Assembly (NCBI GenBank): GCA_030323885.1
Contig: CM059192.1
Coordinates: 62,923,593-62,987,592, forward strand
DNA length: 64,000 nt
Reading direction: 5' to 3'
Origin: Branchipolynoe longqiensis
Taxonomy: Eukaryota > Annelida > Polychaeta > Phyllodocida > Polynoidae
The position numbers and the translations under genes are program-made. Under the pieces are notes generated by a model. It ran no database searches. It worked only from the letters and a program-made list of their open reading frames with translations, and was not told the DNA's origin. Numbering within the stretch: the stretch's first letter is position 1; each line of letters opens with the position of its first letter. Shown in pieces: positions 20,518-63,787 of the stretch.

Positions 20518-20616
20518 ATTGGTGACTTCAAGCTTGATGGAGTAGCTGAAGCCGGGTGCCAGGTTGAAGCCCAGCTCAGTGACCGGGGGCAACACCTGAG
20601 GGCGATGCAGCTGCGC
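20518..20616 (-). CDS. ENaC/ASIC exon: [10 protein letters not shown] segment
   Basis: The exon is bounded on the minus strand by acceptor gtcttacag and donor gtgagtaag; 99 bp, phase 0-0. It reads [20 protein letters not shown], then [13 protein letters not shown]. In ASIC/ENaC channels the equivalent stretch (IH...PP...GF..APGF) follows the palm strands and precedes the thumb cysteines. It continues the frame of the exon at 28513-28595 exactly. The next exons (thumb, TM2) were not found to the left and are probably outside the window. Confidence 0.85.
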
Positions 20617-26600: not shown

Positions 26601-29600
26601 TACATTCATATACATCCATATACATCCATATCCATTCATATACATCCATATACATACATATATATACATACATACACACACATACATACCCATTCATATA
26701 TCATATTTGTGGTGATTATGCTTCTGTATAATCACAGTGAATTATATATTATGCATACATATAGTGGTAAAAAACTGGTATATAAAGAATACATCTCCCG
26801 GCACCACTTCTGGCACCGGCCTTCCCTTAAATAATATGAATAGAAATAAAAAGTGATAACCAACAATAAAATAAATCAAATACAATAATATTTAATGGGG
26901 CTGTCACACTACGACGTAACGACGTCAACGTAGGGAGAACGTGAAGAACGTTGAACTTCTCGGCGTAGTATGCAAATTTGGGCACAAGTTGAACGTGGAT
27001 GCAGCGTAGTGGACGAGAGCGTAACGTCAGTAAAGCGTAGTGATACCGTCATTCAACGAGAGAGGACAACGTAATGACGCTGACGAAACGTTATGAACGT
27101 TATTCCATCGCCAGAACTATGTTGCTTTACGTTACCTTACGTTACTTACATCATTAAACGTTGGCGAAACGCTGAACATACATTCTCCTGACGTTCTCCT
27201 GACTTTCCCATTACGCCGCTTGGACGTTTCCACCGGCTTTAATGTGGGTCAACAAGTGGAACATAGTGGAACGTAGTGAGGAACGTTTGACTAATGTCTG
27301 TTTAACGTCATTGACGTTCGCCGAACGTGTACAGAACGTATGGCAAACATAAACCCTTACGTTCGCATCACATCGAAAGTTTTGAACAGGTTCAAAACAT
27401 TGATGCGCGCCGACGTAACACGACGTAACATGACGTAGCTCGACGTCAGTCTAACGTCATTATGACGTCATAATAACGTAACCCAATGTACGACAACGTA
27501 ATGACCAAATGTGATCACGTCAGGCTTACGTTAGCTCGTTATGTCATAGTGTGACAGGGGTATAAGGTAGGTTTTTCTTAATGTTGTACCAGCAAAACAA
27601 GCCATCTTTGTAGTGATTATGCATCAGATGCATAATCACAGTGAATTATTTATTATGCATATATACATTGGTATGCAAAAAATATATCTAAATGATGTAC
27701 AACAGGACCTCCTCCCCAAGTGGCAAGTGGAAGTATATGAGTGGCCCAAAGACCAGTATATACCCCCATGGTTGACTGGAGGTGGCCTATTGTTTGGGAT
27801 TTACTGCTATACCAACACAGTACTATCATGGGCAGTTCTAGCCTGTAGCCATATGTTGTAACAACTGAATTATTTCCTAATATTCACTGCTAATTTACTC
27901 GATCCGGTCCCACCTAAATGGCATGGAAATATTCATCATATTAGATATAATTGTTTGCTTTCTAGTGATGTATTCCAATATGAAAACATTCCAACACTCA
28001 GTGTGCCACCACCATATTTGTGAACCTGCGCACTAATCCTATATAAAATCCGACCTTGGTAATTGAACCGGGGTCGAATGAGGTATTTAACCATCATAGC
28101 GCAATCGATGTAAGCTCTCCAACCTGCTTATATCTAAATAATAGTATCTATATAGAAATATATATTATAATATCTATATTATAATATCTATATTATAATG
28201 TATATATTATAATAGCTATATTATAATATATATATTATAATATCTATGTTATAATATCTATATTATAATGTCTATATTATATTATCTATATTATAATATT
28301 TATATTATAAATATAATATCTATAGTATGATATATATTATAAATATAATATCTATGGTATATATATTATATTATATCAAATAAAAGTAGACATATTATAT
28401 ATCCTTAAAATACACGTTTGAGGTCTTAATATATTTCACTTCAATACTTAAATAACACAGCACATAATAATAATAATAGCAACAATGATGATAATAATAT
28501 GTGACACAATACCTTAACTCCCTTTGCTTGGTGAATACCTGTCATGTATTCATACGATTCTATATTCAGTGTTAGCTTCAGTCCGTAGTTAGATCCTGAG
28601 AACAAAAGAAAGCACACCATAAAATGATGGAACAACCTCCTCGACAGAACATAATATATATTTCTTGACTGTCGTTAACGTTGTTATTTTCTGTGACTGG
28701 AAAAACAAACGAAGAAATACACACGAATGATGCTAGCTGGCAGCGAGTATACATGTACACCCTGTTTAGCGCTGATGATAAGCTACTAACAACGAATATA
28801 TATATATGATGAATCATGTATTATTTTGAATATAAATGTACAGAAAATAACCTATCACTTATACCTCTGTTACCACCTTACCAAACTGTACCAGTGGCGC
28901 CCCCCCCCCCCACCTCTCCACCCGCTGCGCTAGACCTGTGTCAGTCGCAGCGGAGGAATTGTATATAGCCGGGACTGGATAAAACTGAGAGGTCATCATT
29001 GTTTCCATCCCATAATATCATTATAGAGCATACACCTATAACACAATGGTGCGTGTTGCCGATAACATGAGTAATTCACCACGTTGGCGACCGTGCTAGT
29101 GTGCCAGGATAATTTCCCTGGCGCGTTGCTAGTGCATTCTCGCCCACCGCCAATGCCGGTGTAGCATTCATGTCACTACTGGGATTTAGGCTTCGTGGTA
29201 AAGGAAAACACACCGATGGGCATTCACTACTGGAGCAGCACACAGTACTGAATCCAAGCATGATGATGATGATGATGATGATGATGGTAAAGGTAAACAA
29301 ACCGATGGGTGTTCACTACTGGAGCAGCACACAGTACTGAATCCAAACATGATGATGATAATAATGATGAAGGTAAAGGTAAACAAACTGATGGGTGTTC
29401 ACTACTGGAGCAGCAGACAGTACTGAATCCAAACATGATGATGATGATGATGATGGTAAAGGTAAACAAACCGATGGGAATTCACTACTGGAGCAGCACA
29501 CAGTACTGAATCCAAACATGATGATGATGATGATGATGGTAAAGGTAAACAAACCGATGGGCGTTCACTACTGGAGCAGCACACAGTACTGAATCCAAAC

Positions 29601-29959: not shown

Positions 29960-29992
<33 letters not shown>

Positions 29993-30054: not shown

Positions 30055-30095
<41 letters not shown>

Positions 30096-33000
30096 AATGA
30101 TGATGATGGTAAAGTTAAACAAACCGATGGGCGTTCACTACTGGAGCAGCACACAGTACTGAATCCAAACGGTTTAGGCATATCTTCTGTAAAAAAAAAC
30201 CTCCCACCCACCCACAGCTTGGCTGCAGAACGAAGGCACACTGCCATTGAGTTTCCCGGTACGTGCAGTGCAAAACGTTTATTTTATTCTAAATTAATAG
30301 AAATGCAGAACCCTAAGCATATAAATTTAATATAATCTGTTCATTGAATATGTTTTCTACATGTGTTCCAAGCGGCTTGTGTCTAGATGGTGTGGTTTTA
30401 GAGATATTTCACCGTTTCTGTATGAAGATTGCTCAGGGCCATTGACAATGCATTGAGTTTGTCGGTATGCGCAGTGCAAAACGTCTAACCCTAACCGTAT
30501 ACATTTAATATAATCTATTCGTTTAATATGTTTTCTATATGTGTTCCAAGCGGTTTGTGTCTAGGTGGTGTGGTTTTAGAGATGTTACACTTTTTCTGTA
30601 TGAAGATTGCTCACGGCCATTGACAATGCATTGAATTTGCTGGTACACGCAAGGCAAAACGTTTATTTTATTCAAAATTAATAGAAATGCAGAACCCTAA
30701 CCTTATAAATTTAATATAATCTATTCGGTGGATATGTTTTCTATATGTGTCCCAAGCGGTTTGTGTCTAGGTGGTGTGGTTTTAGAGATATTTCACTTTT
30801 TCTGTATGGAGATTGCTCACGGCCAATGACAACGCATTGAGTTTGCCGGTATGCGCGCCGGAAAACGTATATTTTATTCAAAATTAATAGAAATGCAGAA
30901 CCCTAACCGTATAAATTTAATATAATCTATTCGGTGGATTTGTTTTCTATATGTGTTCCAAGCGGTTTGTGTCTAGGTGGTGTGGTTTTAGAGATATTTC
31001 ACCTTTTCTTTAGGAAGATTGCTCACAGCCATTGACAATGCATTGAGTTTGCCGGTATTCGCAGTGCAAAATGATTATTTTATTCAAAATTAATAGAAAT
31101 GCAGAACCATAGCCTTATAAATTTAATATAATCTATTCATTGAATATGTTTTCTATATGTGTACTAGGCGGTTTGTGTCTAGGTGGTGTGGTTCTAGAGA
31201 TATTTCACTTGTTCTCTATGAAGATTCCTCATAGCCATTGAGTTTGCAGTGTGACAGTGTGTCGTCCTGCAGCCAAAATGCATGCGCACTGACCTAGATA
31301 CGTATGCTGATGTCATATAAAATAGGTCTATAAGCTGAGTGTCTGAGATGCTTCAAAGTTCTTTCTTGACCCTATGATAATCACCAGTAGACGTGTCAAC
31401 ATACTCATAGTCTTATGTAGTAGCTTACTAATATATGTGATATATAATTAATTATATGAGTATAAGATTGGGCGGATTAGGCTTGTGCTATTTTATTATA
31501 TTTATTATATTATTTATTCGCCATGCTATTTATTTGTGCAATTCTGTACCGATCTGCCATTTACTGCGGGCCTGTGTGGGTCCAGGATAGTTTGTCGCCT
31601 CCCCATGCCGGATCATATGCCATTCGGCCAGCGCAGCCGTCACATGAGCTCAAATTCAAAACTTTTACAGGTAGGGCTATCTATTGCTCGGCCAAGGGTC
31701 TCGGTTAAATAAACTAGGCTTCCCACCACTCCTCTTTCTGTTGTTCCTTACTAGGGCGTAGCCCACCTTTTATATGAAATATTAACAAGGGGCAGGGCCC
31801 CCCCTAGCACTGTGATGTATGGGTTAATAATTGTTGACCTGTAGAAAAATTGTCAACAATTTGTATCTTGAAAAATATTTAATAATAACTGTAATTGCAT
31901 GTTCGAGTTCGCCGGTATCAGGAGTTGACCTGACCGAAGATTACTTAAATAAAATATTATTAAAGAAACATTTTAATGTAGAAAATAACCTATGTGTAAT
32001 ACGATGATAACTGCAGCATAAACATAGGGTGGACTATGTAAAAAATATAGTGTTATTGTGAAAAATGTTCAGTGACAGAGGCGTATTTGCTATTTTGTCG
32101 GTGATAATCGATTATAATTGGGAGAATGCTGAACTGAGCTTAGATTGTACAAACAGAAGTTATATGTTGCACTATTCCTATATCCAACGTTGTGACTTAC
32201 TACATATTCAATGATACCAATACAAAACTACTCCCGAAGTCCCCACCCCACCCCACCACACCCCCACCCCTTACCCCCCCACCCCCACCCCCGTCTGTCA
32301 TTCCGAGGGAAACTTTGGTTCGCCTCCGGAAATGCGATGAAAGAAACTCACCCCTGAAGGAGATCACTTTGTCATTGGCCTTATTGAAAGTGTAGCAGAC
32401 ACCAAAGTCGGTGATTATCTGGGTGATGTCCTCAGCGCCGCACGGCAGGCTGTTGTAACTGCAACTGATTTAGGAAAACAAATATAACACGCTTTGCATT
32501 TCGCCATTCACCATGAGTCCAGTTATTTTGACTCAATCAATCAAGTGAACTTTACTTAGGTTGCCTCTTATTACTTTCATCCTTAAGTGGGGGGTGGATT
32601 TCAAACGCGTGCAATTGGTCTTATACCCCTGTCACACTACGACGTAATGAGCCAACGTAAGCCTGACGTGCTCACGTTTCGTCATTAGGTTGACGTATGT
32701 TGGGTTACGTTATGATGACGTCAGAATGACGTTAGACTGATGTCGAGCTACGTCACATTACGTCGTGTTACGTCGGTGCACGTCAAGGTTTTGAACCTGT
32801 TCAAAACTTTCGACGTAACTCAAACGTAAGGGTTTATGTTCGCCATACGTTCTGTACATGTTCGGCAAACGTCAGTGAGGTTAAACAGACGTTAGTCAAA
32901 CACTGCTCACTATGTTCCGCTGCGTTCCACTACGTTGACCCACATTAAAGCCGGTGGAAACATCCACGCGGCGTAATGGGAATGTCAGGAGAACGTACGC

Positions 33001-36000
33001 CAAACGTATGTTCAACATATGTTCAGTGTTTTGCCACCATGTCATGATGTAGGTAACATCAAGCAACATAAAGCAACATAGTTTTGGCAATGGAATAACG
33101 TTCATAACATTCCGTGAGCGTAATTACATTGTCCTCTCTCGTTGAATGACACTATCACTACGCTTTACCGACATTACGCTCTACTCAACTACACTGCATC
33201 TACGTTCAACTTGTGCCCAAATTTGCATACTACGCCGAGAAGTTCGACGTTTTTCACGTTCTCCGTATGCTGACGTCGTTACATCATAGTGTGGCAGGGC
33301 CTTTAGTCATTCCTAGGCTCCTTGCCCTATCTTCACAATATCAAGTGCCAGGCTAGGTAGCAACAAGTGTACATTGTAAAGTCATATGTGACGTGTTTTC
33401 CCCTTCCCCTCTCAGTTCTGATCATAGCATTGACTCAGCTGGATTTGGAATCCCATGACATGCCTGATACTGAGCCAATCCTATCCCTGAACTATAATTG
33501 TTACGTCCATATACCAGGCTAGGTAATGGCGATAAGTATTAATTTTCTAAATAATTAGCCTGAATCGGCGGGATTCAAAACCATGACCTGCCGAGGCGGA
33601 ATCCTCTATACAAATGCTCTACACAATATTGATGTTACATTCCATGTTTAATAAACCATATTCCTAAAACTGTTCATAATTATATAAAATAATCAAACCA
33701 TAACGATTTATAATGATATAAAACAGTCATATTGTTGACTAAAAGAAATGACTAGTCAGATTATATACTTGTATACAAAATTCAAACCTGTGAACAAAGT
33801 CTTCTTGCTGATGGGCCGCCATCCTGAAGAAACTGACCGTGCTGTTCCCTGTCAAGTAGAGTGGAAGCCATTAGATGCCACACATATACTCCTACCACAC
33901 TGAATCTATACACTGCTACCTTTATTTTGATTAATGACTCATATGATTGATGCTTGATTGATGGCGGTTTCACGCCTTGTTAGCAGCAAAAGTCATATTC
34001 ACCATGACAAGCGAGCAGATTTTATCGTGTCATTCTGTTTTCCCTAGAAACTGTTTGTTGTGGTTTACCTCCTAGCAACATCTAAGGTTAAATCAGGACG
34101 GGTACAGACTCGTGACAGTGTGCACTCATGGCGACGTTATTGTAGTTTCCCCACTGGGAAACCAGGCCACCATCATAATGACGCGATAGCCCACACAGTC
34201 AAATTATCCTGATAATGCGCTAACCAGCTTAGCATATGACAGAAGTCTTGAAAATGAGTTATTGTGAAAAGCGCAATTCTTTTTGCCAGATCTAGGCCTC
34301 GACGAACTCCAGTGTGGGAAAGAGTGCATGGGATGCCGCCCTAAAGAAAGTGATACATGTATAATGAAATATAGACTGTAGAGCATACTGACTAAATGAA
34401 ATGTAGACTGTGTAGAGCATAATGACTTAATGAAATATGGACTGTGTAGAGCATACTGACTAAATGAAATGTAGACTGTGTAGAGCATACTCACTTAATG
34501 AAATATAGACTGTGTGGAACATACTGACTTAATGAAATATAGACTGTGTAGAGCATACTGACTTAATGAAATATAGACTGTGTAGAGCATACTGACTTAA
34601 TGAAATGTAAACTGTGTAGAGCATACTGACTGAATGAAATATAGACTGTAGAGCATACTGACTTAATTAAATATAGACTGTGTAGAGCATACTGACTTAA
34701 TGAAATATAGACTGTGTAGAGCATACTGACTTAATGAAATGTAAACTGTGTAGAGTATACTGACTTAATGAAATATAGACTGTGTAGAGTATACTGACTT
34801 AATGAAATATAGACTGTAGAGCATACTGACTTAATGAAATACTGTGTAGGTTTTGTGCTGTGTAGAGTATACTGACTTAATGAAATATAGACTGTGTAGA
34901 GTTTGTGTGTGTTTGGTTGTGGTGGTTTTAGATACTACTTAATTAAATATAGACTGTAGAGCATACTGACTTAATGAAATGTAAACTGTGTAGAGTATAC
35001 TGACTTAATGAAATATAGACTGTGTAGAGTATACTGACTTAATGAAATATAGACTGTGTAGAGCATACTGACTTAATGAAATATAGACTGTGTAGAGCAT
35101 AATGACTAAATGAAATATAGACTGTGTAGAGCATACTGACTTACTGAAATGTAAACTGTGTAGAGTATACTGACTTAATGAAATATAGACTGTGTAGAGC
35201 ATACTCACTTAATGAAATATAGACTGTGTATAGCATACTCACTTAATGAAATATAGACTGTGTAGAGCATACTAACTTAATGAAATATAGACTGTGTAGA
35301 GTATACTGCCTTAATTAAATATAGACTGTGTAGAGTATACTGCCTTAATTAAATATAGACTGTGTAGAGTATACTGACTTAATGAAATATAGACTGTGTA
35401 GAGCATACTGACTTAATGAAATATAGACTGTAGAGCATACTGCCTTAATTAAATATAGACTGTGTAGAGTATACTGACTTAATGAAATATAGACTGTGTA
35501 GAGCATACTAACTTAATGAAATATAGACTGTAGAGCATAATGACTTAATGAAATGTCAATTGTGTAGGGCATACCGACTGAATGAAATATAGACTGTAGA
35601 TCATACTGACTTAATGAAATATAGACTGTGTAGAGCATACTGACTTAATGAAATATAGACTGTGTAGAGCATACTTACTTAATGAAATGTAGACTGCGTA
35701 GAGCATAATGACTTAATGAAATATAGACTGTGTAGAGCATACTGACTTAATGAAATATAGAATGTGTAGAGCATACTGACTTAATGAAATATAGACTGTG
35801 TAGAGCATAATTACTTAATGAAATGTAGACTGCGTAGAACATAATGACTTAATGAAATATAGACTGTGTAGAGCATACTGACTTAATGAAATATAGACTG
35901 TGTAGAGCATACTGACTTAATGCAATATAGACTGTAGAGCATACTGACTTAATGCAATATAGACTGTAGAGCATACTGACTGAAAAGGCACCACAGACTG

Positions 36001-54000: not shown

Positions 54001-57000
54001 GAAATTTTGCTAATGACACATATTTTTAAAGCACATAGATTAGAATGGCCTGACAAAAGAAATCAGGAAAATATGTTATGAATTTTTCGGACTTTATTGG
54101 TGGTCTGTGCAAAATCCAAAATGGTCGCAAACTCTGACCATATCCCGAAAAATCCGGAATTCCGCATAAATCCGGCAGATTCTCATTTATAAAACATGTT
54201 ACAATTAAGTGACCAGGTCTTTGAGGCCATTGCCTTTGCCTATGTCCTTACTTGACGTAAGGAACACCAAGAAGTTGCCAGATGCCTTCGGGAAGGGGGA
54301 GCCCCTTCGCACCCATCTGTTGTGCTTGTCACCGGTGGATTTACTTGTGTAGCCACACTTGTAGTCGTAGTCGAACGAGCAGGACACGTGGCGAACCTCC
54401 GGCGCACCCTCTGTTCAGCAGAAACAGTACATGCGCGATATAGCGAATGGTAGACAGGAAGTGTGAACACTTATTTGTCTCTCTTTTTTTTTTGTACATT
54501 AGTTGTCCCAAGCAGGGGAAATCCCAGTCGACTGGTCTTCCCCACTCCACTGCTGGTCGATAGAAAGCCTGAGCTTACACTTTTACCGACCCAAGGGATT
54601 TTTAACCTCCCATACCACATAGACATGGTATGAGAGCAACCGGCCTTTGATGACGCTGTAAGTTATACACAGCGGTGGAAATCCAAATTGGCAGAGCTGG
54701 GGGCATGGGGAATCGAACCGCCAACCCTCAGATTAGGAGTCTGACCTAGAAAAAAGTCAGACACAGAGAACGCTGTATGTCACTTTTAGGTCACAGAACT
54801 ACATAGGCCCGAAGCACCTTGTGACAAGGCATTTATGCACACCGTGTAGCATATGTAGTTACTATGTTGTGGCTACTCCTACTACCCTGCAGCCGGACAC
54901 CTATTATCCCTGGCAACATTAATGATAACAACATCCACAATTACTGAGAAATCTGCGTGCTACTGGTTCGTTATGTCATGCACCACAAACAGTTATTCTT
55001 GTGTACTTCTTCCTATTAACATACAGCTAAACTTATAGCTTATATGATTATACTTATATGGTTATACTGACATGATTATACTCTACTTCTTCCTATTAAC
55101 ATACAGCTAAACTAATAGCTTATATGATTATACTTATATGGTTATACTTACATGATTATACTGTACTTTTTCCTAGTAACATGCCGCTAAACGTATAGCT
55201 TATATGATTATACTTATATGGTTATACTTAAATGATTATACTCTACTTCCTCCTATTAAAATACAACTAAATGCACAGCTTATATGATTATACTTATATG
55301 GTTATACTTACATGAGTATAATGTACTTATTCCTATTAACATACAGCTAAACTTATAGCTTATGTGATTATATTTATTTATATATATTGTGTGTGTGTGT
55401 GATGAATTTATTCACCTTGCTCATAACGGTTAAGGGTGTTAACACTTGTTTTCACTGATGGGCAGCACTAGTCCAATTCGATCCACATCTTTTGAATTTA
55501 GTTTAAGTAATAATTTTAGTTTACTTGCTTCTTGTTTATGGATTATATGATTATACTTACATGATTATACTGTACTTCCTACTATTAACATAACACTAAA
55601 CGCTTAGCTTATATGATTGTACTTATATGGCTATACCTATGTGATTATACTCATATGATTTTACAGTATGATTGAACTTATATGATTATAGGCATATGTA
55701 TATATATTAATGATTATACTTATATAAATATATACTTATATGATTATACTCATACGGTTATACGGTTATACTTATATCATTATACTGTACTCCCTCGTAA
55801 TAACATATAAACCTACAGCTAAGCTTATAGCTTCTCTGATTATACTTATATGGTTACACTTATATGATTATCAGCTGGTTATACTCATAAGTCATATGAT
55901 CATACTTGTATGCCTATACTTATACGAGCTTACTTATATGATTATGCTGATGTGATTATAATGACATGATTATACTTGAAAAAGAAAAGAAAAGAAAAGA
56001 AATTATGATGTGTTTATGACTGTTGGGTTCAGTGAGAAGTAGCTTTCTGCTGTCAACATAATAAGGTGGATCAGAAGTCACTCACTGCACAGGTTCACTT
56101 TGCAGTCTTGCCAGGCGGAGTTAGGCAGGCGGGTGTAGCAGTAAGGGCTACCCCAGTCGGGGTTACGGCAGTAGGCGCCAGCAGCCTCAACCGACGTGTC
56201 CGGCAACGCACTGTTCACCCTGGTAACCAAGGAAACCAAGCAATCAACGCATGCATCTCACCCCCCACACACACCTGCCACACACGTGTGTTAAAATTTG
56301 GGGCGTGCAGGTGAGGGCTACATCAGCACCGAAGTGATACAATCAGGAAGCATTACCAATGGCATTGTACGATGGAAATATTAGCCCAAACGCGAATCCA
56401 AAGAAATTAGATCAACATTGAAAGGTTAATTTGTTGTATATTCCCATATTTCTATTCATCGCTTCATAACCATTTCTTCACAAGAAAAGTGGAATTAGTG
56501 AGAATTAAAATTAGCTTCACATAAAACTCTTATTTTAATACACTTTTAGAATTACGGAGTTTTGCGCCTGAAGTCTTCATATCAAAGTTTCAACGGTCGG
56601 TCAGTCTTGTGTCACCGTATTAGCTAGATAAAGGATTCACCCTGAACCTGTAGTAGCCTACTGCGAGTACAGGGTGAATCTGTTATCTACGTATTAACAT
56701 GCATGGAAAGGCAAAGGCAAGCCTTACATATCAACTTATAATCATCTCTCTTTTTGTGTGTGTTTATCTCTGAATTTGTCCTTTTGTAAGGGCTGCAGTC
56801 CGAAATAAATAATTTAATTAAATTATCTTTTCCATGTATATTTCGCATGGATTGTGACACATTTGCTATGAGTATGCCTCATTTGACCAAACTGTGCATT
56901 TGGCCAAATATAATGAAATAAACAAACTTACGGCAGAGCAACTTTATCCCAGGGCAGGCAAGCAACACCTGTCTTGGTCTTGTTCTCAAAGCCCATGTAT

Positions 57001-60000
57001 TCGTATTCAAAGGTGTCCATGAAGCAATCTACAAAGGTTCAGACATGCAAATAATTGCACGTTATTTTACAACATGGCTAATTTTCAGAGAGGTAAGGAG
57101 TCGACCAAACAACTACCCGATGCCTATGACGAACTGACACTGGTGGTGCCACCTAGCGTTATTCTCTACATTGAAACGGCCATTGAAACACCCATCCACT
57201 GCCGCCACCTGGCGCTTTTATACGTCATAACCGCCTTCTGGTTGAAACCGTCACTCACCACCTGGCGCTGTTATACTCCTCCAGCATCTGATGTCATAAC
57301 CGCCTTCGGGTTCAAACCGTCACTCACCACCTGGCACTTTTATACACCTCCAGCATCTGATGTCATAACCGCATTCGGGTTCAAACTGTCACTTACCACC
57401 TGGCACTTTTATACTCCTCCAACATCTGATGTCATAACCGCCTTCGGGTTGAAACCGTCACTCACCACATGGCGCTTTCTTACTCCTCCAGCATCTGATG
57501 TCATAACCGCCTTCGGGTTCAAACCGTCACTCACCACCTGGCGCTTTTATACTCCTCCAGCATTTGATGTCATAACCGCCTTTGGGTTCAAACTGTCACT
57601 CACCACCTGCACACAAAGCCACGAGGTGAAACCATCGTGCAATGTTTGATGCCACCACCGACAACTAGACGAATATACGCAACACGGAGGGTTTAAACGT
57701 GAATAATTCTGGACTTTGACCGTCAAATTTAACTCTGATTTGACTTGTACTTGAGAGAGAAATAAAAGCACTGTTATACCCTGCTAGTCTTGCTGTGAAT
57801 TACATCTTATTTCAGGATGGCACATTGTGTGCATTGCTACAGAGCATCACAGCTAGACACACTTAGTCAATATAATAGCTACAGCAAGGGGTGCTAATTT
57901 GAATTCATTATATGATCCTGCGTGAGTCAATCTATTCTGCACAATGCTTTGGCACTGAAAAGTGATCAGGTCAGATCAATGTTGAATTAAAAAGACAAAT
58001 ATCTTACTCTGTAGATTACCTTATCTGCAACTTCTTTCTGTGTACAGGGTTCATACACATGTGAATTTATGAAATTCAAGCCTATTTCACGGCTTTTCAA
58101 TGCTGTTTTTGATAGGAATTCAAGACTATTTTCATTTGGATTGACACTTTCGGACTAATTTAGATCAGTGGGGACAGTTTAAGGGAATTCAAGCCTTTTC
58201 AAGACGAATTACCGAAAATAGGTCAAATTCTAGGCTTTTCAAGGCCTTGAAATGGGGCATATGCAGTTCAATCAATACCTTTCAAGACTTTCCAGGTCCC
58301 ATACGAACCCTGTGTTTAAATTCATTCTGAATTAATCAATTACAAAATTAATTTCAGAGTATTCCCTAAATGAAACATTTCTTAAAAGACATTCAGTAAA
58401 TGCCACATTTGTTAATTGTTCATGATATGGGTAATTTGCGACAGGCTGGAATGGGTACTCAGCCAACTCTTATGACACTGACACGCCGGCTATCAATTTA
58501 AAACTAAACCAAACAACCCTGCTGCTAACGTTAAATATTGACACCACCAGGCCTTACACATGTACGATACCACCACCTATCCGTTACGTTCACACTAAAT
58601 TACTATACAACTTATGCTGAAACCAGTGGTTTCATTCCTCTGGGCGCTGACGTCACAGCCAGCATTGAACCGCTCACTCACCGCCCAGACAGGAACCTGC
58701 GGAGACCAGCCTGATCACCAATTCTGTCGCCCCTCAACTAACAAACAGGCTACTCAAGCAGTAGGGTTGAGAGTGATGAGTTTGATTACCTATTGTTTGA
58801 TGACATTTGTTATTTTGATTGAATAAATGCAAATTATACCACTTCTGTCTCATCGTTAATTTTAAAGTTTCTTTAATAATTTAGAAGTCTTCTACAAATA
58901 GTAAGGGGGTTTAATCATATAATTGTTCACTTTGTTCCACAAGCACCATTTTTGGATCAGGGGGCGATATTGGCATCACCTACTTTTTTTTTTAGGGAAT
59001 CAAGATGGCCATCACGAGAGTCAGGCATTGCAATAACTTGAGAGCTAAAAGTAGTAGAACCATAAATGACACCACTTTTCAGGGGCTTTTGAGTATCGGG
59101 AATCCATTTCTGGTGTTATTTTGCCGATTCTAGGTAAGTGCATGGTGTTAGTCTCATATTTGAAAAATGTTTGGTTCACATTATGACTATTTCAAACCAG
59201 AAATCTATTTAGGCAGGAATGTACGGTAACAATATCTTGAGGCAAAGCATACAGAAAAACATGTATATTATGTTATCCTATTGATGATTAACATGATCTT
59301 ACTATATATTATACTGTAGGATTCAATACTAAAAAATGCATGTCATATAATGAAAATCTAGGCAAATATCACCATTCTAAGTAACTCTTCAATTATGTAC
59401 CAGTGGAAAAGTAATCCCATTCAAAGACATGAATAATACTTTGTTCAAGAAAAAACAATAACATGTCATTTCATAGAAGACATAAAACAACGATCTTTTG
59501 TATCTTCACATTCACATAGAATGTTTAAATGAATCGTTGAAATTGTTTTAAAATGATTGATATAAATAGCTTGTGTTTGCAAATGAAATAAGAATACAAT
59601 GATGTTTTATGGGCTCACTCAACTTGTATAATCAGAGAATGTCATCCAACAACAGAAGCATTCATCTACTATTCTCTAGCCATCAATTTCAGTGCTGTTC
59701 CCTGATTTGCATCTATGTCATATTGTTTAAGCAGCCATCCCTGCACTTGCACAGAGCCATGCAAGGAAGGCCGGCCCTGTAGTATTTACAATTTCCTCTG
59801 CATGCTTTGGCGCATCCACAGTGCAGGACGATAGAGCAATTCTTACTTGTGTCAGCCAGGGTTGTCCAGAAAGGAAGCCATTGCTTGCTGCATTGATCTG
59901 TTCCCATCCCCATTTATCAAATACAGGGATCACCTGGTGACAAGCGGTTGACTGCTTCCAGATGAAATTAGCTTGAAGCAAGGATCTCTTGACATGTTGC

Positions 60001-63000: not shown

Positions 63001-63787
63001 AAATGGACTCCCCATACACGAAAACCTCTGAAAAATGGTGTCATTTATGGTTCTACTACTTTTGGTTCTCAACTTATTGCAGCGCCTGACTCCGGATGGT
63101 GGCCATCTTGGATTTGTCCAATATGGCCGCCACAGCTTGAGTCCGGCTTGGCTCCCTCGAGAAATTGGTAAGTTCTGGTTATCTCTAACCCTCGTTCAAA
63201 AATGGTGCTTGTGGAACGATTTGAACAAGCCGGGTGTTTTTTTAGCTTAAGCCCCCTGACTAGTTGGAGAACGCCGATATACCAATTACAATTTCATATG
63301 CCAACAAAATTAGGAAAATACACAATATATTTGGGAAAGTACACATTTCTTTTCACTCGAGAACCCAAATAGGAAATTTGGGGTCAGCAGATCTGCTCTT
63401 CAAATTTGGGATATAAAACTAAGTCATTTTCTTTTACAGTACTAGCAAAAAATAATTATTCATATTTGTGCCACTGAGGTTTTCTCAATGATTGAAATGA
63501 GCTAGTTGAAAAGCTCAACCTGCAGAAGTAAGTGAGCTGCTCACCACAGACTGGGACGCTACAGAACTGCCAGGCACCTGAGGCGCTGTCGGTGTAGCAC
63601 CATGGCTCCTTCTTGAAGGCGCTTGGGTTCCGACAGAAATTCTCCGCCTGCACGATGCCTCCATCAGCCCGGAAGTCCTCGTCCTGGAAGTGGTGCATGC
63701 CGGTGTCCCAGCGCTGGCACGGCTGGCCGGACACGGTGACATTAAGGTCACCTCGGTACTCAGTACCGGGGATGGTGTACCGGCAAA
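20518..63787 (-). CDS. gene span: kringle-MAM-LDLa-ENaC/ASIC mosaic channel (partial, 14 exons)
   Basis: Fourteen minus-strand exons listed separately appear to form one gene. Thirteen have matching phases in series: 1-1, 1-2, 2-1, 1-1, then (skipping the half kringle at 49420) 1-0, 0-1, 1-1, 1-1, 1-1, 1-2, 2-1, 1-0, 0-0. The five 3' exons follow the ASIC/ENaC extracellular order: wrist/finger, the DFVH and CSYNSLPCG segment, [18 protein letters not shown], and [10 protein letters not shown]. The expected product is a plasma-membrane sodium-permeable channel subunit with adhesive or protein-binding modules outside the cell. Neither membrane helix lies in the recognised exons: TM1 should be upstream (right) and TM2 downstream (left). 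No trypsin domain was found, so a plasminogen-like protease is unlikely. One continuous transcript is inferred, not shown. Confidence 0.7.
20617..21042. other. AT-rich intron, nothing recognised
   Basis: Strongly AT-rich, especially 20870-21040, with runs of ata/tat. No element boundary was recognised before the inverted repeat at 21043. Confidence 0.5.
21043..21885 (+). repeat. left inverted arm
   Basis: The reverse complement matches 26695-28129. The 85-residue frame on the minus strand (21316-21573) and its twin at 27613-27861 are an effect of the arm similarity and need not be genes. A CAG tip is followed by a degenerate tRNA-like stretch. Confidence 0.8.
22040..23200 (+). pseudogene. 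DIRS-like RNase H and tyrosine recombinase relic
   Basis: RNase H (about 22045-22320) shows [15 protein letters not shown] and [13 protein letters not shown]. The recombinase N-terminus follows (about 22413-22690: [30 protein letters not shown]), then [20 protein letters not shown], and near 23160 the C-terminal [15 protein letters not shown], in which the usual HxLRRG Arg is replaced by Trp. Several frames are needed. The family differs from the two Ngaro copies. The catalytic Tyr region is missing because at about 23200 the sequence switches to antisense reverse transcriptase. The frame is dead. Confidence 0.75.
23060..23900. repeat. 430-bp tandem duplication spanning a recombinase/reverse-transcriptase junction
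   Basis: Two direct copies, about 23085-23490 and about 23510-23900, share cattacagacaactataaag (23100 and 23523), the following recombinase segment, the switch into antisense reverse transcriptase, and cggcgggcc/ctccctgagg words. Since both copies contain the junction, it formed before the duplication. The second copy lacks about 50 bp at the junction. Confidence 0.75.
23190..24940 (-). pseudogene. antisense Ngaro/DIRS-type reverse transcriptase relic
   Basis: On the minus strand, 24640-24540 reads [19 protein letters not shown], matching the start of the Ngaro domain. It is followed by [31 protein letters not shown] (motif A), [12 protein letters not shown] (motif B) and IYGDDFVW (motif C, YGDD rather than the YLDD of the other copies). 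The thumb-side segment [17 protein letters not shown] falls at about 23860. Frames change near 24140 and 23960. A second partial copy of the 3' portion lies at 23190-23500. Orientation is opposite to the recombinase relic on its left. Confidence 0.8.
24940..25138. other. GC-rich flank, nothing firm
   Basis: It may be the 5' linker of the antisense retrotransposon (Pro/Ala-rich in minus frames), but no motif confirms this. Confidence 0.35.
25139..25442. mobile_element. small inverted-repeat (MITE-like) element, 304 bp
   Basis: Ends are gtaaatcgcaaacccc and its reverse complement ggggtttgcgatttac. Subterminal gatttccta and aatcacaaacc words are also inverted, giving arms of about 60 bp. An extra partial unit (aaatcgcaaaccct) precedes the left end. 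No coding capacity. The target duplication is not clear. Confidence 0.65.
25748..26092 (-). mobile_element. tRNA-derived SINE, full length
   Basis: Read on the minus strand from 26092: a tRNA-like head with A-box-like tggccgaatgagttag and B-box gggttcgaaccc, then the body shared with other copies (gataatgtgac, gatatcaggtcatgg, acgggtaccgac region), ending gttgctaggacg and an A-rich (CAAA)-like tail at about 25748-25765. The head is a promoter relic and not a functional tRNA gene. Confidence 0.85.
26093..26700. repeat. ATGT/ATGC-rich microsatellite block
   Basis: Irregular runs of tatg, tgtg, gcat and cata. Long open frames of Met/Tyr/Cys/Val on both strands are by-products of the 4-bp period. 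Near 26590-26640 the motif becomes atacatccat. Confidence 0.9.
26695..28129 (-). repeat. right inverted arm (split by a MITE)
   Basis: Mirror of 21043-21885. The tip region read inward from 28129 has an A-box-like tgcgctatgatgg and a B-box-like ggttcaattacc about 30 bp later, so the terminus includes a pol III promoter-like, tRNA-derived stretch. Interrupted at 26896-27562. Confidence 0.8.
26896..27562. mobile_element. Harbinger-type MITE, 667 bp
   Basis: Ends are ggggctgtcacactacgacg and its inverted counterpart ending agtgtgacagggg. TAA is duplicated at both sides (26893-26895 and 27563-27565). The interior has no gene but is dense in aacgt/acgtt/gacgt words. The termini match the autonomous-size PIF/Harbinger element at 39497-43742. 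It is inserted inside the right arm of the 7.1-kb element. Confidence 0.85.
28135..28380. repeat. AT-rich tandem repeat (tatattataatatc)
   Basis: Degenerate tandem copies of about 14-16 bp. No coding value. Confidence 0.85.
28513..28595 (-). CDS. ENaC/ASIC exon: [10 protein letters not shown] segment
   Basis: 83 bp between acceptor tcttttgttctcag and donor gtattg; phase 1-0. It reads [20 protein letters not shown] and then HQAKGVK. In ASIC-like channels this is the G..GL...L......Y.......G.KV palm segment that comes after the CYTFN motif and before the GF.LAPGF motif. The exons on both sides supply exactly those parts in matching phase. The donor (gtattg) is weaker than consensus but usable. 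Confidence 0.8.
28600..29214. other. intron, nothing recognised
   Basis: There is a C run at 28905-28915. The sequence around 29100-29160 is GC-richer without a recognisable domain. Confidence 0.5.
29215..30170. repeat. minisatellite of about 86 bp with an internal (ATG)n
   Basis: About eleven head-to-tail units. Each has a constant part of about 60 bp (gtaaacaaaccgatgggcg, then tcactactggagcagcacac and agtactgaatccaaac) and a variable run of 4 to 15 atg triplets ending gatggtaaag. Units differ in length mainly through the triplet run. All frames are open on both strands because the array is low-complexity; no gene is implied. Confidence 0.95.
30240..31245. repeat. tandem array with a unit of about 205 bp
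   Basis: Five copies. Markers are gcaaaacgtttattttattc, aattaatagaaatgcagaac, gcggtttgtgtctaggtgg and tttagagatatttcac, with starts near 30258, 30459, 30639, 30845 and 31052. The second copy lacks about 20 bp. It follows the 86-bp array directly. Confidence 0.9.
31246..32190. other. intron, nothing firm
   Basis: No domain recognised. An aataaa-type signal lies near 31708, after a stretch that could be a degenerate LTR end (31560-31760), but no paired terminus was found. A C-rich run lies at 32240-32295. Confidence 0.4.
32352..32464 (-). CDS. ENaC/ASIC exon: FGVCYTFN segment
   Basis: 113 bp, acceptor ttttcctaaatcag, donor gtgagt; phase 2-1. It reads [16 protein letters not shown], then [20 protein letters not shown]. 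The FG.CYTFN signature, preceded by a two-cysteine C.YN..PCG segment, is diagnostic of the DEG/ENaC/ASIC superfamily. The split codons at both ends join correctly to the neighbouring ASC exons. This is the firmest evidence that the gene encodes an amiloride-sensitive-type sodium channel. Confidence 0.93.
32624..33302. mobile_element. Harbinger-type MITE, 679 bp (inverse-oriented relative of 26896-27562)
   Basis: The left end taccccTGTCACACTACGACG and the right end terminate in the shared tgtcac/gtgacag-type inverted tips (right copy reads gtggcagggc). TTA is duplicated at 32621-32623 and 33303-33305. The interior is related to the copy at 26896 in opposite orientation and is rich in acgt words. 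Confidence 0.85.
33306..33640 (-). mobile_element. degenerate SINE copy or copies
   Basis: Two body-like stretches occur (caggctaggtagcaacaagt near 33352; ccaggctaggtaatggcgat near 33512). A tRNA-like B-box relic (reverse complement of gggattcaaaacc) lies near 33570. This suggests one SINE copy inserted beside or inside another. No tail is intact. Confidence 0.55.
33788..33848 (-). CDS. ENaC/ASIC exon: [10 protein letters not shown] segment
   Basis: A 61-bp mini-exon, acceptor ctctacttgacag, donor gtttga; phase 1-2. With the split codon it reads [20 protein letters not shown]. In ASIC-type proteins a segment of this kind (..F...AGHD..D.....C) lies just before the C.Y....C region supplied by the next exon. 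It contains an N-glycosylation sequon (NST). The family call depends mostly on phase and context, since the exon is short and the donor is not strong. Confidence 0.7.
34050..34235 (-). mobile_element. SINE copy, head missing
   Basis: It shows cctagcaacatctaaggtta, tcaggacgggtac and the cactcatggcgac body words, with a tail-like tgtttgttgtgg start. It ends near 34235 without a tRNA-like head. Confidence 0.7.
34340..35985. repeat. 34-bp satellite, about 47 copies
   Basis: The unit gtgtagagcatactgactta plus atgaaatatagact is repeated for 1.6 kb. There is a frequent 32-bp variant lacking gt, and swaps of gcatac/gtatac. One interruption at 34830-34925 contains unrelated T/G-rich sequence. Confidence 0.97.
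36070..36420 (+). pseudogene. 3' end of a LINE (CR1/L2/Jockey-type) ORF2
   Basis: Plus-strand frames give [13 protein letters not shown] text (tgcattggctgccaataaaag), [17 protein letters not shown], then [19 protein letters not shown] and an AASVDNL-like end. This is the familiar C-terminus of non-LTR retrotransposon ORF2 proteins (LHWLP, then a Y-G-R-x-F and LWNxLP-like stretch). Stops and shifts are many. Only the last 100 or so codons remain, as expected from 5' truncation. Confidence 0.75.
36612..36983. mobile_element. probable solo LTR, 372 bp
   Basis: Starts TGTAGGCACC and ends GGTCCTACA, so termini are TGTAGG/CCTACA. It contains a TATA-like tgtatataacc near 36789 and aataaact near 36933, in the order expected of an LTR. 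GC content is much higher than the flanks. A clean 5-bp target duplication was not seen. Confidence 0.55.
37059..37245. mobile_element. Tc1/mariner-pogo-like MITE, 187 bp
   Basis: TIRs cagtggaaccccgttataacg and cgttataacgggtttcactg are flanked by TA on both sides. No coding capacity. Confidence 0.85.
37433..37537 (-). CDS. ENaC/ASIC exon: wrist/finger segment
   Basis: 105 bp, acceptor ttattctttctttcag, donor gtatgc; phase 1-1. It reads [20 protein letters not shown], then [14 protein letters not shown]. Sequence similarity to ASIC proteins is weak, but in the family a variable acidic stretch of this length lies between the first extracellular strand and the D(F/I)...C.Y segment. The phase fits both the LDLa exon upstream and the mini-exon downstream. 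The excellent polypyrimidine tract supports a real exon. Confidence 0.65.
37560..37878 (-). mobile_element. tRNA-derived SINE, near full length
   Basis: Minus strand: the head has A-box tggctcaatcggtagagcgc and B-box gagttcgaatccc at 37875-37810, followed by the shared body (gatactgtg... tgacaagtatcaa, cacattatcctgatactgag in plus orientation). It ends cctagcaacagc near 37580. Its head differs from the one at 26000-26092 although the body is shared. Confidence 0.85.
38083..38461. mobile_element. Harbinger-type MITE, 379 bp
   Basis: Left end taccccTGTCACATTACAACG, right end CGTCGTAATGTGACAGGGC. TTA is duplicated at 38080-38082 and 38462-38464. The interior is rich in cgacg and cgcgcc words and differs from the larger MITEs, although the tips agree. 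Confidence 0.85.
38478..39377. repeat. 37/38-bp satellite, about 24 copies
   Basis: Unit agaagggaatactaagcatt plus aagcattagttgtgtat. Variants carry tgctgtat or tgatgtat and cattaagcttgt. Head-to-tail over 0.9 kb, between two Harbinger-type elements. Confidence 0.97.
39963..41867 (+). pseudogene. Harbinger-associated Myb/SANT-like DNA-binding protein (at least two exons)
   Basis: In PIF/Harbinger elements a second protein with a Myb/SANT trihelix domain escorts the transposase to the TIRs. The domain is seen at 40351-40590: [20 protein letters not shown], then [22 protein letters not shown] and [18 protein letters not shown] Ser/Pro-rich N-terminal part precedes it in another frame (40085-40354), so a frameshift lies near 40350. 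A donor-like site (ctgcagaact|gtaagt, about 40590) and acceptor (gtcttgcag, about 40946) suggest an intron. The second exon (40947-41867) is acidic and then Pro/Gln-rich. aataaa near 42131 could end the message. Confidence 0.65.
42285..42465. repeat. CT-rich low-complexity tract inside the transposase 3' end
   Basis: Runs of ctctctct, tttccc and tctccctc. Read on the minus strand they form a Glu/Arg-rich artificial tail after the catalytic region. Confidence 0.85.
42344..43240 (-). pseudogene. PIF/Harbinger DDE transposase (deleted and mutated)
   Basis: N-terminus (43237 downward) starts [20 protein letters not shown] and continues to [20 protein letters not shown] and [17 protein letters not shown], typical of Harbinger transposases. 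At about 42960 the text jumps to [16 protein letters not shown] and [20 protein letters not shown], skipping the roughly 70 residues normally between. A frame change follows. In the other frame the first catalytic block reads [14 protein letters not shown], where active relatives have GALDGKH, so the first catalytic Asp is Gly. A later block [17 protein letters not shown] keeps its Asp. The 3' end is replaced by a CT-rich tract. Convergent with the Myb-like gene. Confidence 0.85.
43845..43946 (-). CDS. LDL-receptor class A exon
   Basis: 102 bp, acceptor catctgtgctgccag, donor gtatgc; phase 1-1. It reads [20 protein letters not shown], then [13 protein letters not shown]. The spacing C-x(4)-C-x(5)-C...D-C..GDDE is the LDLa pattern with the calcium-binding acidic end. 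One of the usual six cysteines (before NG) is replaced by Ser, so one disulfide would be incomplete. A symmetric phase-1 exon is the classic shuffled extracellular module. It joins directly in phase to the first ENaC exon. Confidence 0.9.
44097..44692. repeat. 62-bp minisatellite with a built-in palindrome
   Basis: Nearly ten copies, all very similar. Each unit contains tagattcaa, then 7 bp, then ttgaatcta, a perfect 9-bp inverted repeat, and cccgcctta. Low divergence suggests recent expansion or gene-conversion-like homogenisation. Confidence 0.96.
44700..45377. other. intron with a short tandem array
   Basis: Three diverged copies of about 60-63 bp at 44953-45143 (marker gatgaggtgaaggt followed by aataatcaataat and tagttgttaact). 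A further stray palindromic unit end lies at 44735-44760. No gene. Confidence 0.6.
45378..45488 (-). CDS. LDL-receptor class A exon
   Basis: 111 bp, acceptor acgtcctcccacccacag, donor gtaagt; phase 1-1. It reads [19 protein letters not shown], then [17 protein letters not shown]. All six cysteines and the DCSDNSDE calcium-binding motif are present, so this repeat should fold normally. Together with the exon at 43845 it forms a pair of LDLa modules between the MAM domain and the channel part. Splice sites are near consensus. Confidence 0.95.
45489..45938. other. intron, nothing recognised
   Basis: No repeat or domain was seen. Confidence 0.5.
45939..46149 (-). CDS. MAM domain exon, C-terminal part
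   Basis: 211 bp, acceptor tgtgtatcccacgacag, donor gtatgt; phase 0-1. It starts [15 protein letters not shown] and ends [20 protein letters not shown]. The closing AIDD(V/I)....GSC is the hallmark end of MAM domains (meprin, A5, mu protein-tyrosine-phosphatase), which mediate cell-surface protein contacts. The exon follows the 47139-47287 exon in phase 0. Its acceptor lies at the edge of a 30-bp minisatellite whose units keep the same reading frame open upstream. Confidence 0.92.
46150..46465. repeat. 30-bp minisatellite abutting an exon
   Basis: About ten copies of cacatgtacctacacagcgg plus ggacttagtg. On the minus strand each unit reads ten residues ([10 protein letters not shown]), so all frames keep step, and each carries a ctgtgtag|gt stretch that resembles a splice acceptor. 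The last, diverged unit supplies the real acceptor of the MAM exon. Confidence 0.95.
46640..46885 (+). mobile_element. SINE copy in plus orientation
   Basis: The head relic has B-box-like gggttcgaatctc near 46730. The body includes ataatgtgactgagtggg, atatcaggtcatgg and gtcggtaccg, and the copy ends tgatatgaccttagatt without an A-rich tail. Confidence 0.75.
46886..46998. mobile_element. Tigger/pogo-like transposon fragment
   Basis: The sequence ends tcgacaaccgaggtttcagtg, the inverse of a cactgaaacctcggttgtcg terminus common in pogo/Tigger-type elements. The left side (gttaaggaacgg) may be the other, worn terminus. It adjoins the SINE end. Confidence 0.5.
47139..47287 (-). CDS. MAM domain exon, middle part
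   Basis: 149 bp, acceptor ttctctttgcgcag, donor gtgtgt; phase 1-0. It reads [20 protein letters not shown], then [20 protein letters not shown] and TPVLTVISE. The A.L.SP.L......CL.F.(Y/F) pattern is the central strand-Cys region of MAM domains. It joins the 54252-54410 exon in phase 1 and the 45939-46149 exon in phase 0, giving a domain of about 170 residues, which is normal. Confidence 0.9.
47350..48558. repeat. 64-bp minisatellite, about 19 copies
   Basis: Unit ttggggtgtgcgggtgtggg, tgttcatggtacattagttg, ataaagaaggggcactttcc, gtag. Variants are gttgttaaag and short forms. It begins about 60 bp upstream of the MAM middle exon acceptor. Confidence 0.97.
48559..49419. other. intron, nothing firm
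   Basis: A fragment like the SINE body (ctatcaatgccgagtggcag...gtagtgacaagt) lies at about 48575-48615 and a (ttta)n run at 48880-48910. No gene. Confidence 0.5.
49420..49595 (-). CDS. kringle exon, second half, phase-incompatible with its neighbours
   Basis: 176 bp, acceptor gtctattgttcag, donor gtacgc; phase 2-1. It reads [20 protein letters not shown], then [19 protein letters not shown] and [10 protein letters not shown]. The N-YCR..........WCY.TD....ED C.VP.C arrangement is a kringle C-terminal half with four of the six cysteines. Phase-2 internal kringle introns are known. The exon lies between two MAM exons that fit each other in phase 1 without it. No partner with the first half was recognised between 49596 and 54251. 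It could be an alternative cassette, a leftover, or an assembly effect. Confidence 0.8.
49618..50712. repeat. 43-bp minisatellite, about 25 copies
   Basis: Unit cagcctctgtacacctgcca, tatatacatgcaggctgtgt, tat. Variants are cccctatacac, tccaggctgc and an insertion of ccca. Long Cys/Tyr-rich frames on the plus strand are by-products. It begins about 25 bp from the kringle exon acceptor. Confidence 0.97.
50713..50972. other. intron, nothing recognised
   Basis: No feature seen. Confidence 0.4.
50973..51594. mobile_element. possible 622-bp element with TAGATAAAAGATTCACC termini
   Basis: Ends are tagataaaagattcacc and ggtgaatcttttatcta. Flanking 9-mers gttgtcagt and atcgtcagt agree at 7 of 9. The termini match the 65-bp hairpin at 56625-56689. 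A short tandem repeat lies inside (51236-51345). No gene. Confidence 0.6.
51236..51345. repeat. short tandem repeat
   Basis: Four units of about 27 bp alternating caaaatgtaccacctgacta with catcagcaaat or ccctcagtcaat. Confidence 0.85.
51595..53120. other. intron, no gene recognised
   Basis: A SINE body fragment (ctatcctaataacgctgagc ... gacaagtatcaattgttaag) lies at about 52040-52110. A minus-strand frame of 158 codons at 52467-52943 has no recognisable family, skewed composition and no splice support. A C run lies at 52955-52966. Confidence 0.5.
53125..53372 (-). mobile_element. SINE of a second family, copy 1
   Basis: Shares gacccaagggatttttaacc, tgacgctgtaagttatacac and agcggtggaaatccaaattg with the copy at 54545-54765. 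The right end, read on minus, resembles a tRNA head (gttagcgtgtctgacttg...). Confidence 0.75.
53500..53582 (-). mobile_element. tRNA-like SINE head
   Basis: Minus strand: ggagcctcaatagtctaatg, gttaggacgctagcc, then gggttcgaaacc. A and B boxes are correctly spaced, but the cloverleaf is poor, so this is a SINE head rather than a tRNA gene. Confidence 0.6.
53640..53732 (+). mobile_element. SINE 3' tail fragment
   Basis: gtcctgatatgaccttagat, gttgctaggacgtc, then an A-rich caacaacaaacaaac tail; the same family as at 1690. Confidence 0.7.
53733..54251. other. intron, nothing recognised
   Basis: Short direct repeat gatacctacaaacaaatt at 53820-53850. No gene. Confidence 0.5.
54252..54410 (-). CDS. 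MAM domain exon, N-terminal part
   Basis: 159 bp, acceptor gtttctgctgaacag, donor gtaagg; phase 1-1. It reads [20 protein letters not shown] and then [20 protein letters not shown]. The C(S/D)F(D/E)...(C/L)CGY......D...W.R pattern opens MAM domains. Its 3' phase fits the MAM middle exon at 47139-47287 directly, skipping the half kringle at 49420. Being symmetric (1-1), this piece alone could also be skipped or moved without breaking the frame. Confidence 0.85.
54545..54765 (-). mobile_element. SINE of a second family, copy 2
   Basis: Same body words as 53125-53372. The head on the minus strand includes ggtcagactcctaatctgag and gcggttcgattcccc (B-box). Divergence between the copies is moderate. 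Confidence 0.8.
55010..55975. repeat. AT-rich tandem repeats (about 78-bp higher-order unit)
   Basis: The unit ttcctattaacatacagcta, aacttatagcttatatgatt, atacttatatggttatactt, acatgattatact is repeated in full at 55020-55370 and degenerates to 55975. Interrupted at 55380-55540 by unrelated sequence with a (gt)n run. Confidence 0.9.
56086..56219 (-). CDS. kringle exon, second half
   Basis: 134 bp, acceptor tttccttggttaccag, donor gtgagt; phase 2-1. It reads [20 protein letters not shown], then [12 protein letters not shown]. The YCRNPD....YCY.....W..C.V..C pattern is a canonical kringle C-terminal half (cysteines 3 to 6, the last split by the intron context). It follows the 56932-57028 exon in phase 2, as in plasminogen-type kringles. 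Confidence 0.92.
56625..56689. mobile_element. 65-bp hairpin MITE
   Basis: Arms tagataaaggattcaccctg and cagggtgaatctgttatcta with a 25-bp loop. Flanking 9-mers cgtattagc and cgtattaac agree at 8 of 9, consistent with a 9-bp target duplication. Confidence 0.75.
56932..57028 (-). CDS. kringle exon, first half
   Basis: 97 bp, acceptor tgtctgaacctttgtag, donor gtaagt; phase 1-2. It reads [20 protein letters not shown], then [12 protein letters not shown]. This matches the kringle opening C.......Y.G....T..G..C.PW. With 56086-56219 it makes one complete kringle of about 75 residues, a disulfide-stabilised extracellular binding module. It carries an N-glycosylation sequon (NKT). Confidence 0.9.
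57074..57649 (+). repeat. 69-bp minisatellite with an open 23-residue frame
   Basis: About six full copies of ctgatgtcataaccgccttc, gggttcaaaccgtcactcac, cacctggcgcttttatactc, ctccagcat, from about 57200 to 57620. As 69 is a multiple of three, one plus-strand frame stays open for 191 codons, starting near 57074. No splice or promoter support; antisense to the host gene. Confidence 0.9.
57650..58044. other. intron, nothing recognised
   Basis: No domain or repeat seen. Confidence 0.5.
58045..58312. mobile_element. hAT-like MITE, 268 bp
   Basis: Termini CAGGGTTCATAC and, inverted, GTATGGGAACCCTG-like (right end catacgaaccctg). The interior has many aattcaag/cttttcaa words typical of a common hAT-derived MITE type. 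An 8-bp target duplication is not evident. Confidence 0.65.
58414..58850 (+). repeat. possible non-autonomous Ngaro-type remnant
   Basis: The left part, taattgttcatgatatgggtaatttg, resembles the Ngaro A repeat. The right part (gggttgagagtgatgagttt ... ttgattgaataaatgc) resembles the start and the polyadenylation part of the B repeat. About 400 bp lie between, without coding capacity. Weak similarity only. Confidence 0.35.
58904..59155 (+). repeat. left TIR of the CXC/PIN element
   Basis: Matches the right TIR inverted; the strongest block is 59050-59150. It contains a T run and the word gatggcca, which the right arm also has. Confidence 0.85.
59713..62567 (-). pseudogene. CXC/PIN-like protein of unknown function (putative transposon protein)
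   Basis: Minus-strand frames from about 62567 to 59713 line up as one protein broken by stops and shifts. In order: a cysteine-containing N-terminal part (62378-61959); a conserved middle with [13 protein letters not shown] (about 61620), [21 protein letters not shown] (about 61400) and [12 protein letters not shown]; then [18 protein letters not shown] plus [19 protein letters not shown] (60398-60560), whose EAD and D-x-D spacing resembles a PIN/FEN1-like nuclease; and a C-terminal cluster [17 protein letters not shown] (about 59800) with CKCRDGC, like a CXC/tesmin zinc-binding region. I recall similar uncharacterised proteins in many invertebrate and fish genomes. The function is inferred only. 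Confidence 0.6.
62960..63257 (-). repeat. right TIR of the CXC/PIN element
   Basis: Inverted counterpart of 58904-59155, starting caccatttttgaacg and reaching cctagaatcggcaaaataac at its inner side. It includes two mentions of gatggccatcttgg-type sequence. Confidence 0.85.
63258..63544. other. intron, nothing recognised
   Basis: No feature seen. Confidence 0.5.
63545..63787 (-). CDS. complete kringle in a single exon
   Basis: 243 bp, acceptor gactggtgctgttcag, donor gtgagc; phase 1-1. It reads [40 protein letters not shown], then [20 protein letters not shown] and WQFCSVPVC. All six kringle cysteines and the FCRNP/WCYT signatures are present. Unlike the next kringle it has no internal intron, so the two did not arise by a simple recent exon duplication. 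It is the most upstream module visible; upstream exons (signal or TM1) must lie beyond 64000. Confidence 0.95.

Follow-up and report, generated by a model that had tools for sequence, protein, structure and literature searches.

A putative DEG/ENaC-family channel subunit with kringle, MAM and LDLa modules in its extracellular part, from the annelid Branchipolynoe longqiensis

Whether kringle, MAM and LDL-receptor class A (LDLa) modules and a DEG/ENaC-type channel domain, encoded one after another on the same strand, belong to a single protein is the question raised by this locus of Branchipolynoe longqiensis. The window, that is, the whole stretch of DNA analyzed, spans 64,000 nucleotides of contig CM059192.1 (assembly GCA_030323885.1, positions 62,923,593 to 62,987,592), and all positions given here refer to it. 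With a probability of roughly three in four, the exons are parts of one gene that runs off both ends of the window and would encode a DEG/ENaC-family cation channel subunit with a kringle/MAM/LDLa head, which would be gated by binding or anchored.

Sixteen minus-strand exons, from 63787 down to 1798, splice into 693 codons without a stop in one frame, and all 16 are preceded by AG and followed by GT. The spliced product shows the domain order kringle 1, kringle 2, MAM with kringle 3 inside, LDLa, LDLa, and the finger and upper thumb of the channel domain (ASC). Kringle 1 is contained entirely in a single exon (K1, 63545..63787), kringle 2 is divided into halves (K2a, 56932..57028, and K2b, 56086..56219), and kringle 3 likewise has a first and a second part (K3a, 52775..52862, and K3b, 49420..49595). 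The MAM is comprised of three exons, the first of which holds a third of the domain (MAMa, 54252..54410; MAMb, 47139..47287; MAMc, 45939..46149). The two LDLa repeats, LA1 (45378..45488) and LA2 (43845..43946), are followed by six channel exons: A1 (37433..37537), the start of the finger as found, A2 (33788..33848) and A3 (32352..32464), both belonging to the finger, A4 (28513..28595), A5 (20518..20616), and A6 (1798..1948), which contains the start of the thumb, LPKPWGDC..CQLDCATKRALSACQC..HMP. For 6 of the 16 exons (K1, K2a, K3b, A2, A5, and A6) the splice site was picked with the phase known, so their junctions are not independent tests.

The order of kringle, kringle, MAM, LDLa, LDLa and ASC exons on the minus strand, as given in the original prediction, is borne out by splicing and by Pfam. 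The agreement in phase claimed there also stands, with 693 stop-free codons; the count of thirteen exons does not, as 15 lie within the interval considered and A6 lies outside it. Both of the kringles named are present, but a third one, in frame inside the MAM, had been overlooked, and the five ASC pieces correspond to A1 to A5, with the sixth exon at 1948-1798 beyond that interval.

The exons have a GC content at third codon positions (GC3) of 0.71, whereas the window as a whole has a GC content of 0.44, and all 16 exons exceed their 200-base flanks in GC. The intron between A5 and A6 is 18.6 kb long and holds mobile elements. At 2120-4696 on the minus strand within this intron, an integrase core (rve) ORF lies near an ORF resembling an A32-like packaging ATPase (22.1 bits, just under the Pfam cut-off of 22.8), a pair which we take to be that of Polinton/Maverick elements. 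Three plus-strand ORFs, at 7772-9232, 9739-10326, and 17555-19666, show reverse transcriptase matches; the first and the last are, by eye, presumably DIRS-like, and ORF 18887-19666 has no Pfam match. A tandem array with a 109-base unit at 1242-1615 is similar, by eye, to the stretch where A6 ends and its intron begins. Intronic minisatellite arrays are found at 34362-35981 (unit of 34 bases), 38481-39380 (75), 47350-48558 (64), and 49621-50706 (43).

A domain search of the spliced product, proposed along with the original prediction, matched all four Pfam families: Kringle with 168.8 bits in three stretches, ASC with 124.6, LDLa with 64.7 in two stretches, and MAM with 46.4. The ASC match (PF00858) covers profile positions 128-321 of 455, against a curated cut-off of 23.6. 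When the minus-strand frames of 15001-64000 are searched unspliced with their stops masked, Kringle and LDLa are the only families above their cut-offs, and ASC and MAM are matched only after splicing. A PDZ_CPAF_rel match over A1-A2 scores 13.8-15.8 bits, below its cut-off of 27, and Rfam yields no match at gathering scores. Alignments show that the finger and upper-thumb cysteines of the DEG/ENaC family are retained.

Chance similarity of the channel exons was addressed with a profile built from four sequences of ASIC/ENaC subunits, run against 1986 six-frame ORFs of at least 20 residues. The top four ORFs are A6 (32.7 bits), A3 (21.0), A4 (15.6), and A5 (9.0), collinear with the channel along the strand, and the fifth scores 3.5 bits. 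Among 20 random sequences sharing the trinucleotide statistics of the window, no ORF exceeds 11.2 bits, and the ORFs ranked fourth stay at or below 5.1. Taken by itself, A5 is thus within the range of chance, whereas the four exons together are beyond it. A1 and A2 are absent from the best 60 of the 1986 ORFs, and A1 is weakly ASC-like apart from its end, the only part of it that the ASC profile matches. Chance exons are rejected by the profile ranking, the random-sequence controls, and the GC excess of the exons.

The modules themselves show a peculiarity in the MAM. Kringle 3 (49420-52862) is located in the phase-1 first intron of the MAM (45939-54410) and is itself bordered by phase 1 on both sides, so that the MAM frame is kept whether kringle 3 is included or skipped. 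Without kringle 3, the joined MAM exons match PF00629 over its full length (positions 1-157, 51.8 bits); with it, the match shrinks to positions 53-157 (46.4 bits). Kringle 3 is either an alternative exon or a kringle built into a loop of the MAM, and because a complete MAM requires that it be skipped, it is, of all the modules, the likeliest to be optional. Each of the three kringle stretches (PF00051) contains, by inspection, six cysteines. A recent tandem duplication is rejected as the origin of the kringles, which show 34-42% identity among each other and three different exon layouts. A direct repeat of 162 bases, 88% identical, flanks MAMa (53110-53271 and 54538-54699); a duplicated MAM exon was considered and rejected, as a single MAM stretch is matched.

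The critical junction for a single protein is the one between LA2 and A1. Here, two neighboring or nested genes on the same strand might meet, one that ends after 43845 and codes for a secreted or membrane-bound kringle/MAM/LDLa protein, and an ASC gene of its own, as 6.3 kb lie between the two exons and two minus-strand ORFs in this interval (42431-42219 and 40425-39970) contain TM-like hydrophobic 19-mers. The first of these ORFs is repeat-rich, and neither shows FPAxTxC or a profile match. The donor of LA2 leaves one base and the acceptor of A1 takes two, a frame match with a one-in-three chance. LA1 (PF00057) is complete, with six cysteines and, by eye, the usual acidic calcium ligands. 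LA2 is without cysteines 4 (a serine here) and 6 and has, by eye, only some of the acidic ligands. Cysteines 4 and 6 of LDLa repeats pair with each other; because of this pairing, and because A1 brings no cysteine, their joint absence from LA2 fits the LA2-A1 join. The minus-strand stretch 40343-40113 is open, phase-compatible with LA2-A1, and has good splice scores and a GC3 of 0.67, with a short tandem repeat inside; it has no ASC or Pfam match and could be an unrecognized extra exon at this junction.

A separate ASC gene would need an exon with the first transmembrane segment (TM1) and the palm strand FPAxTxC, and ASC profiles found no TM1 followed by FPAxTxC in the window, up to its upstream end at 64000. 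As positive controls, ENaC pieces that contain FPAVT reach 23.7-35.9 bits with profiles of two ASICs, and ASIC pieces reach 27.7-48.0 bits with profiles of two ENaC subunits. The best ORF of the window scores 7.4 and 8.9 bits with the two-sequence ASIC and ENaC profiles and 7.0 bits with all four sequences. With control scores of 9.2-16.4 bits, TM1 by itself gives a weak signal, so that an exon with TM1 only could escape detection; one containing FPAxTxC should be detected. Such an exon hidden between LA2 and A1 was also sought and rejected, since no profile match and, in motif scans, no FPAxTxC occurs there; the scans return one FPALT at 52279, outside this stretch and without the following cysteine. 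The second transmembrane segment (TM2), with its GxS selectivity motif, has no match above chance level in the window either, and the gene would run past the window end after A6.

If no FPAxTxC exon lies in the window, the first half of a functional channel would have to be encoded upstream of kringle 1, which would place the module exons inside the channel gene. TM1 should accordingly be sought upstream of kringle 1, and a single transcript would extend from TM1 upstream to TM2 downstream. Under the reading as two genes, a modular gene would have to sit on the same strand in an intron of the channel gene, with matching phase-1 borders, which makes that reading unlikely even though it agrees with the domain content of most protein matches described below.

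A protein search with the spliced model returned 11 proteins among 3032 candidates, 7 of which were rescanned for domains. According to their listed domains, one joins kringles and ASC, and the other 10, as expected for two separate genes, have kringles or LDLa and no channel domain. The one exception, P0008, is a partial protein prediction of 520 residues from the ostracod Cyprideis torosa. It shows an ASC match at profile positions 18-80 (TM1-FPAITIC), followed C-terminally by two kringles, the first of them incomplete. It would represent the half that is missing from the window, in the order predicted by the reading as one gene, and the occurrence of TM1 before kringles in a second animal speaks against two genes; it supports rather than proves the join. 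A transposase-like DDE_Tnp_4 piece lies between TM1 and the kringles (18.6 bits, below cut-off), and the TM1-kringle join of P0008 may be an artefact of gene prediction across a mobile element. Its first kringle has LFPEKNRT.AQNFCRNP in common with kringle 3, at an identity of 0.49. Plasminogen-like kringles from oyster reach a slightly higher identity to kringle 3 (0.52), and for this reason no orthology is claimed for the first kringle of P0008. An insertion of the modules after TM1 and before the finger, as put forward in the original prediction, is thus favored by the missing FPAxTxC exon, with its controls, and by the ostracod order TM1-FPAITIC-kringle.

The reading as one channel gene also has to be weighed against a channel copy that has lost its TM1 half and carries modules instead, which would be a young pseudogene or encode a protein that is secreted or does not form a channel. 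The ASC match begins only at profile position 128 of 455, and 5 of the 10 window ORFs tested are mobile-element genes, as would suit such a copy. A degenerating copy is at odds with the lack of any stop or frameshift across 16 exons and with a GC3 that is similarly high in the modules (0.72 without kringle 3, 0.73 in kringle 3) and in the channel exons (0.68). The partner of the finger cysteine in FGVCYTFN sits in FPAxTxC, and this finger cysteine is retained here, again contrary to a copy without the TM1 half. Such a copy is considered very improbable.

Within the one gene favored here, the modules might be present in some isoforms only, the main product being a plain channel with its TM1 exon spliced straight to A1. 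The module borders are all phase 1, and whole modules, singly or all together, can therefore be skipped with the frame kept; the MAM that is complete only with kringle 3 skipped points in the same direction. Conversely, all module exons are open and rich in GC3 like the channel exons, a kringle-bearing relative is predicted in the ostracod, and the intron upstream of the window would be required to have phase 1. A mainly plain channel is rather doubtful. This possibility overlaps with the main reading, and the probabilities of the readings are not meant to sum to 1.

For the preferred single chain, the insertion site of the head can be estimated from alignments. In the alignment with ASIC1a and P0012, a bivalve channel described below, A1 begins some 22 residues beyond FPAITIC. 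Its first residues fall elsewhere in another alignment, and the site is accurate only to within some residues. A1 would follow finger helix 1, which would put the head, about 490 residues of modules, into the slot between finger helices 1 and 2 or close to it. In the passages of Noreng et al. 2018 that concern GRIP (PMC6197857), this domain of ENaC is placed between finger helices alpha1 and alpha2 and described as a small domain of beta-strands with cleavage sites and inhibitory tracts. Loss of its protease-sensitive segments is proposed in the same passages to change the finger and thumb, perhaps coupled to gating. A passage of a further paper (PMC8791634) calls GRIP unique to ENaC.

In the proposed architecture, sequence upstream of the window would encode TM1 and the FPAxTxC palm strand, after which the chain would leave the channel core near finger helix 1. 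It would then run through kringle, kringle, MAM, LDLa and LDLa, with kringle 3 spliceable in frame into the MAM, re-enter the finger, and continue into the thumb and to TM2 beyond the window. The modules would occupy the outer rim, in the GRIP slot or close to it, and bind an extracellular or matrix protein. Binding or pull would be passed to the finger and thumb, so that the channel would be gated by, or anchored to, extracellular proteins, as deduced from the modules that it carries.

The kind of binding can be narrowed down to some extent. Lysine-binding kringles carry a DxD acidic pair before WCYT; by inspection for this motif, the lysine-binding pair is found in none of the three kringles. 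No furin-type R-x-K/R-R occurs in the 693 residues, which contain a single R-x-x-R (RWVR), located in the MAM, and a single RRR. Plasmin-like docking and furin activation are not indicated, because the acidic pair and R-x-K/R-R are absent, and plasmin-like docking or ENaC-style cleavage appears less likely than plain protein binding. In ASICs, the DE pair in HSQDEPPF is the acidic-pocket pair for proton sensing. Across A4-A5, HSQDEPPF is replaced by HRPQVLPP, and proton gating of the ASIC type would not be expected because the pair is absent.

A more far-reaching proposal, offered tentatively and regarded as possible rather than probable, is that kringle-headed DEG/ENaC channels form a class of their own, comprising at least the ostracod and the present animal, in which the alpha1-alpha2 slot holds a receptor head for direct gating or tethering by proteins and splicing of a kringle into the MAM switches binding. 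If this applies, the slot that in vertebrate ENaC is home to the protease-removed GRIP tract holds a multimodule receptor head. The route by which force or ligands reach the DEG/ENaC gate via the finger and thumb is still to be settled, and a large module-built head spliced in the finger would show that the slot accepts whole binding domains. Such a channel would unite the binding part of a receptor and a channel in one chain and would connect the shuffling of phase-1 module exons with the origin of a new receptor-channel. No description of a DEG/ENaC-family protein with kringles is found among the literature matches listed, in a coverage that takes in the minority of subscription journals, and the main text examined from the lancelet literature mentions neither a kringle nor a sodium channel. 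A predicted database protein with ASC and kringles already exists in P0008, unnamed.

Compared with known proteins, the predicted channel shares parts with several and its combination of modules with none of the 12 proteins matched, as no listed domains join ASC to MAM or LDLa. P0008 has the ASC part TM1-FPAITIC before kringles in common with it and is a fragment in which MAM, LDLa, finger and TM2 are not seen. Kringle 3 shares up to 52% identity with kringles of the plasminogen-like proteins of molluscs and fish, for which no channel domain is listed. Residues 430-693 alone matched none of 1129 candidates, and the final protein search yielded one protein of 486 candidates, P0012, a hypothetical channel of the bivalve Solemya velum. 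From A2 on, 62 of 163 residues are identical to P0012 (38%) over the finger and upper thumb, but in P0012 TM1 is joined directly to the finger without modules. At residues of about 395-860, between the thumb/palm part and TM2, P0012 shows a long insertion, helical by eye, which may be either another example of extensive extracellular sequence added to such a channel or an error of gene prediction.

The best solved relatives of the ASC part are ASIC2 (95.7 bits, over residues 37-201 of the ASC part) and ASIC1 (94.5 bits, over its residues 40-201). The sequences of ASIC1a and ASIC2a are identical at 56 and 55 of 163 positions, respectively, from A2 on (34%), with CYTFN, LGF.LAPGF, and the thumb start LP.PWG.C in common; the aligned ASIC sequences have no modules in the finger. 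Vertebrate ENaC, as far as the passages on GRIP describe it, belongs to the same family and likewise carries extra extracellular sequence, in its case between finger helices 1 and 2. The GRIP of those passages is small and bears cleavage sites, whereas the present chain, without R-x-K/R-R, would carry a far larger head built of kringle, MAM and LDLa modules.
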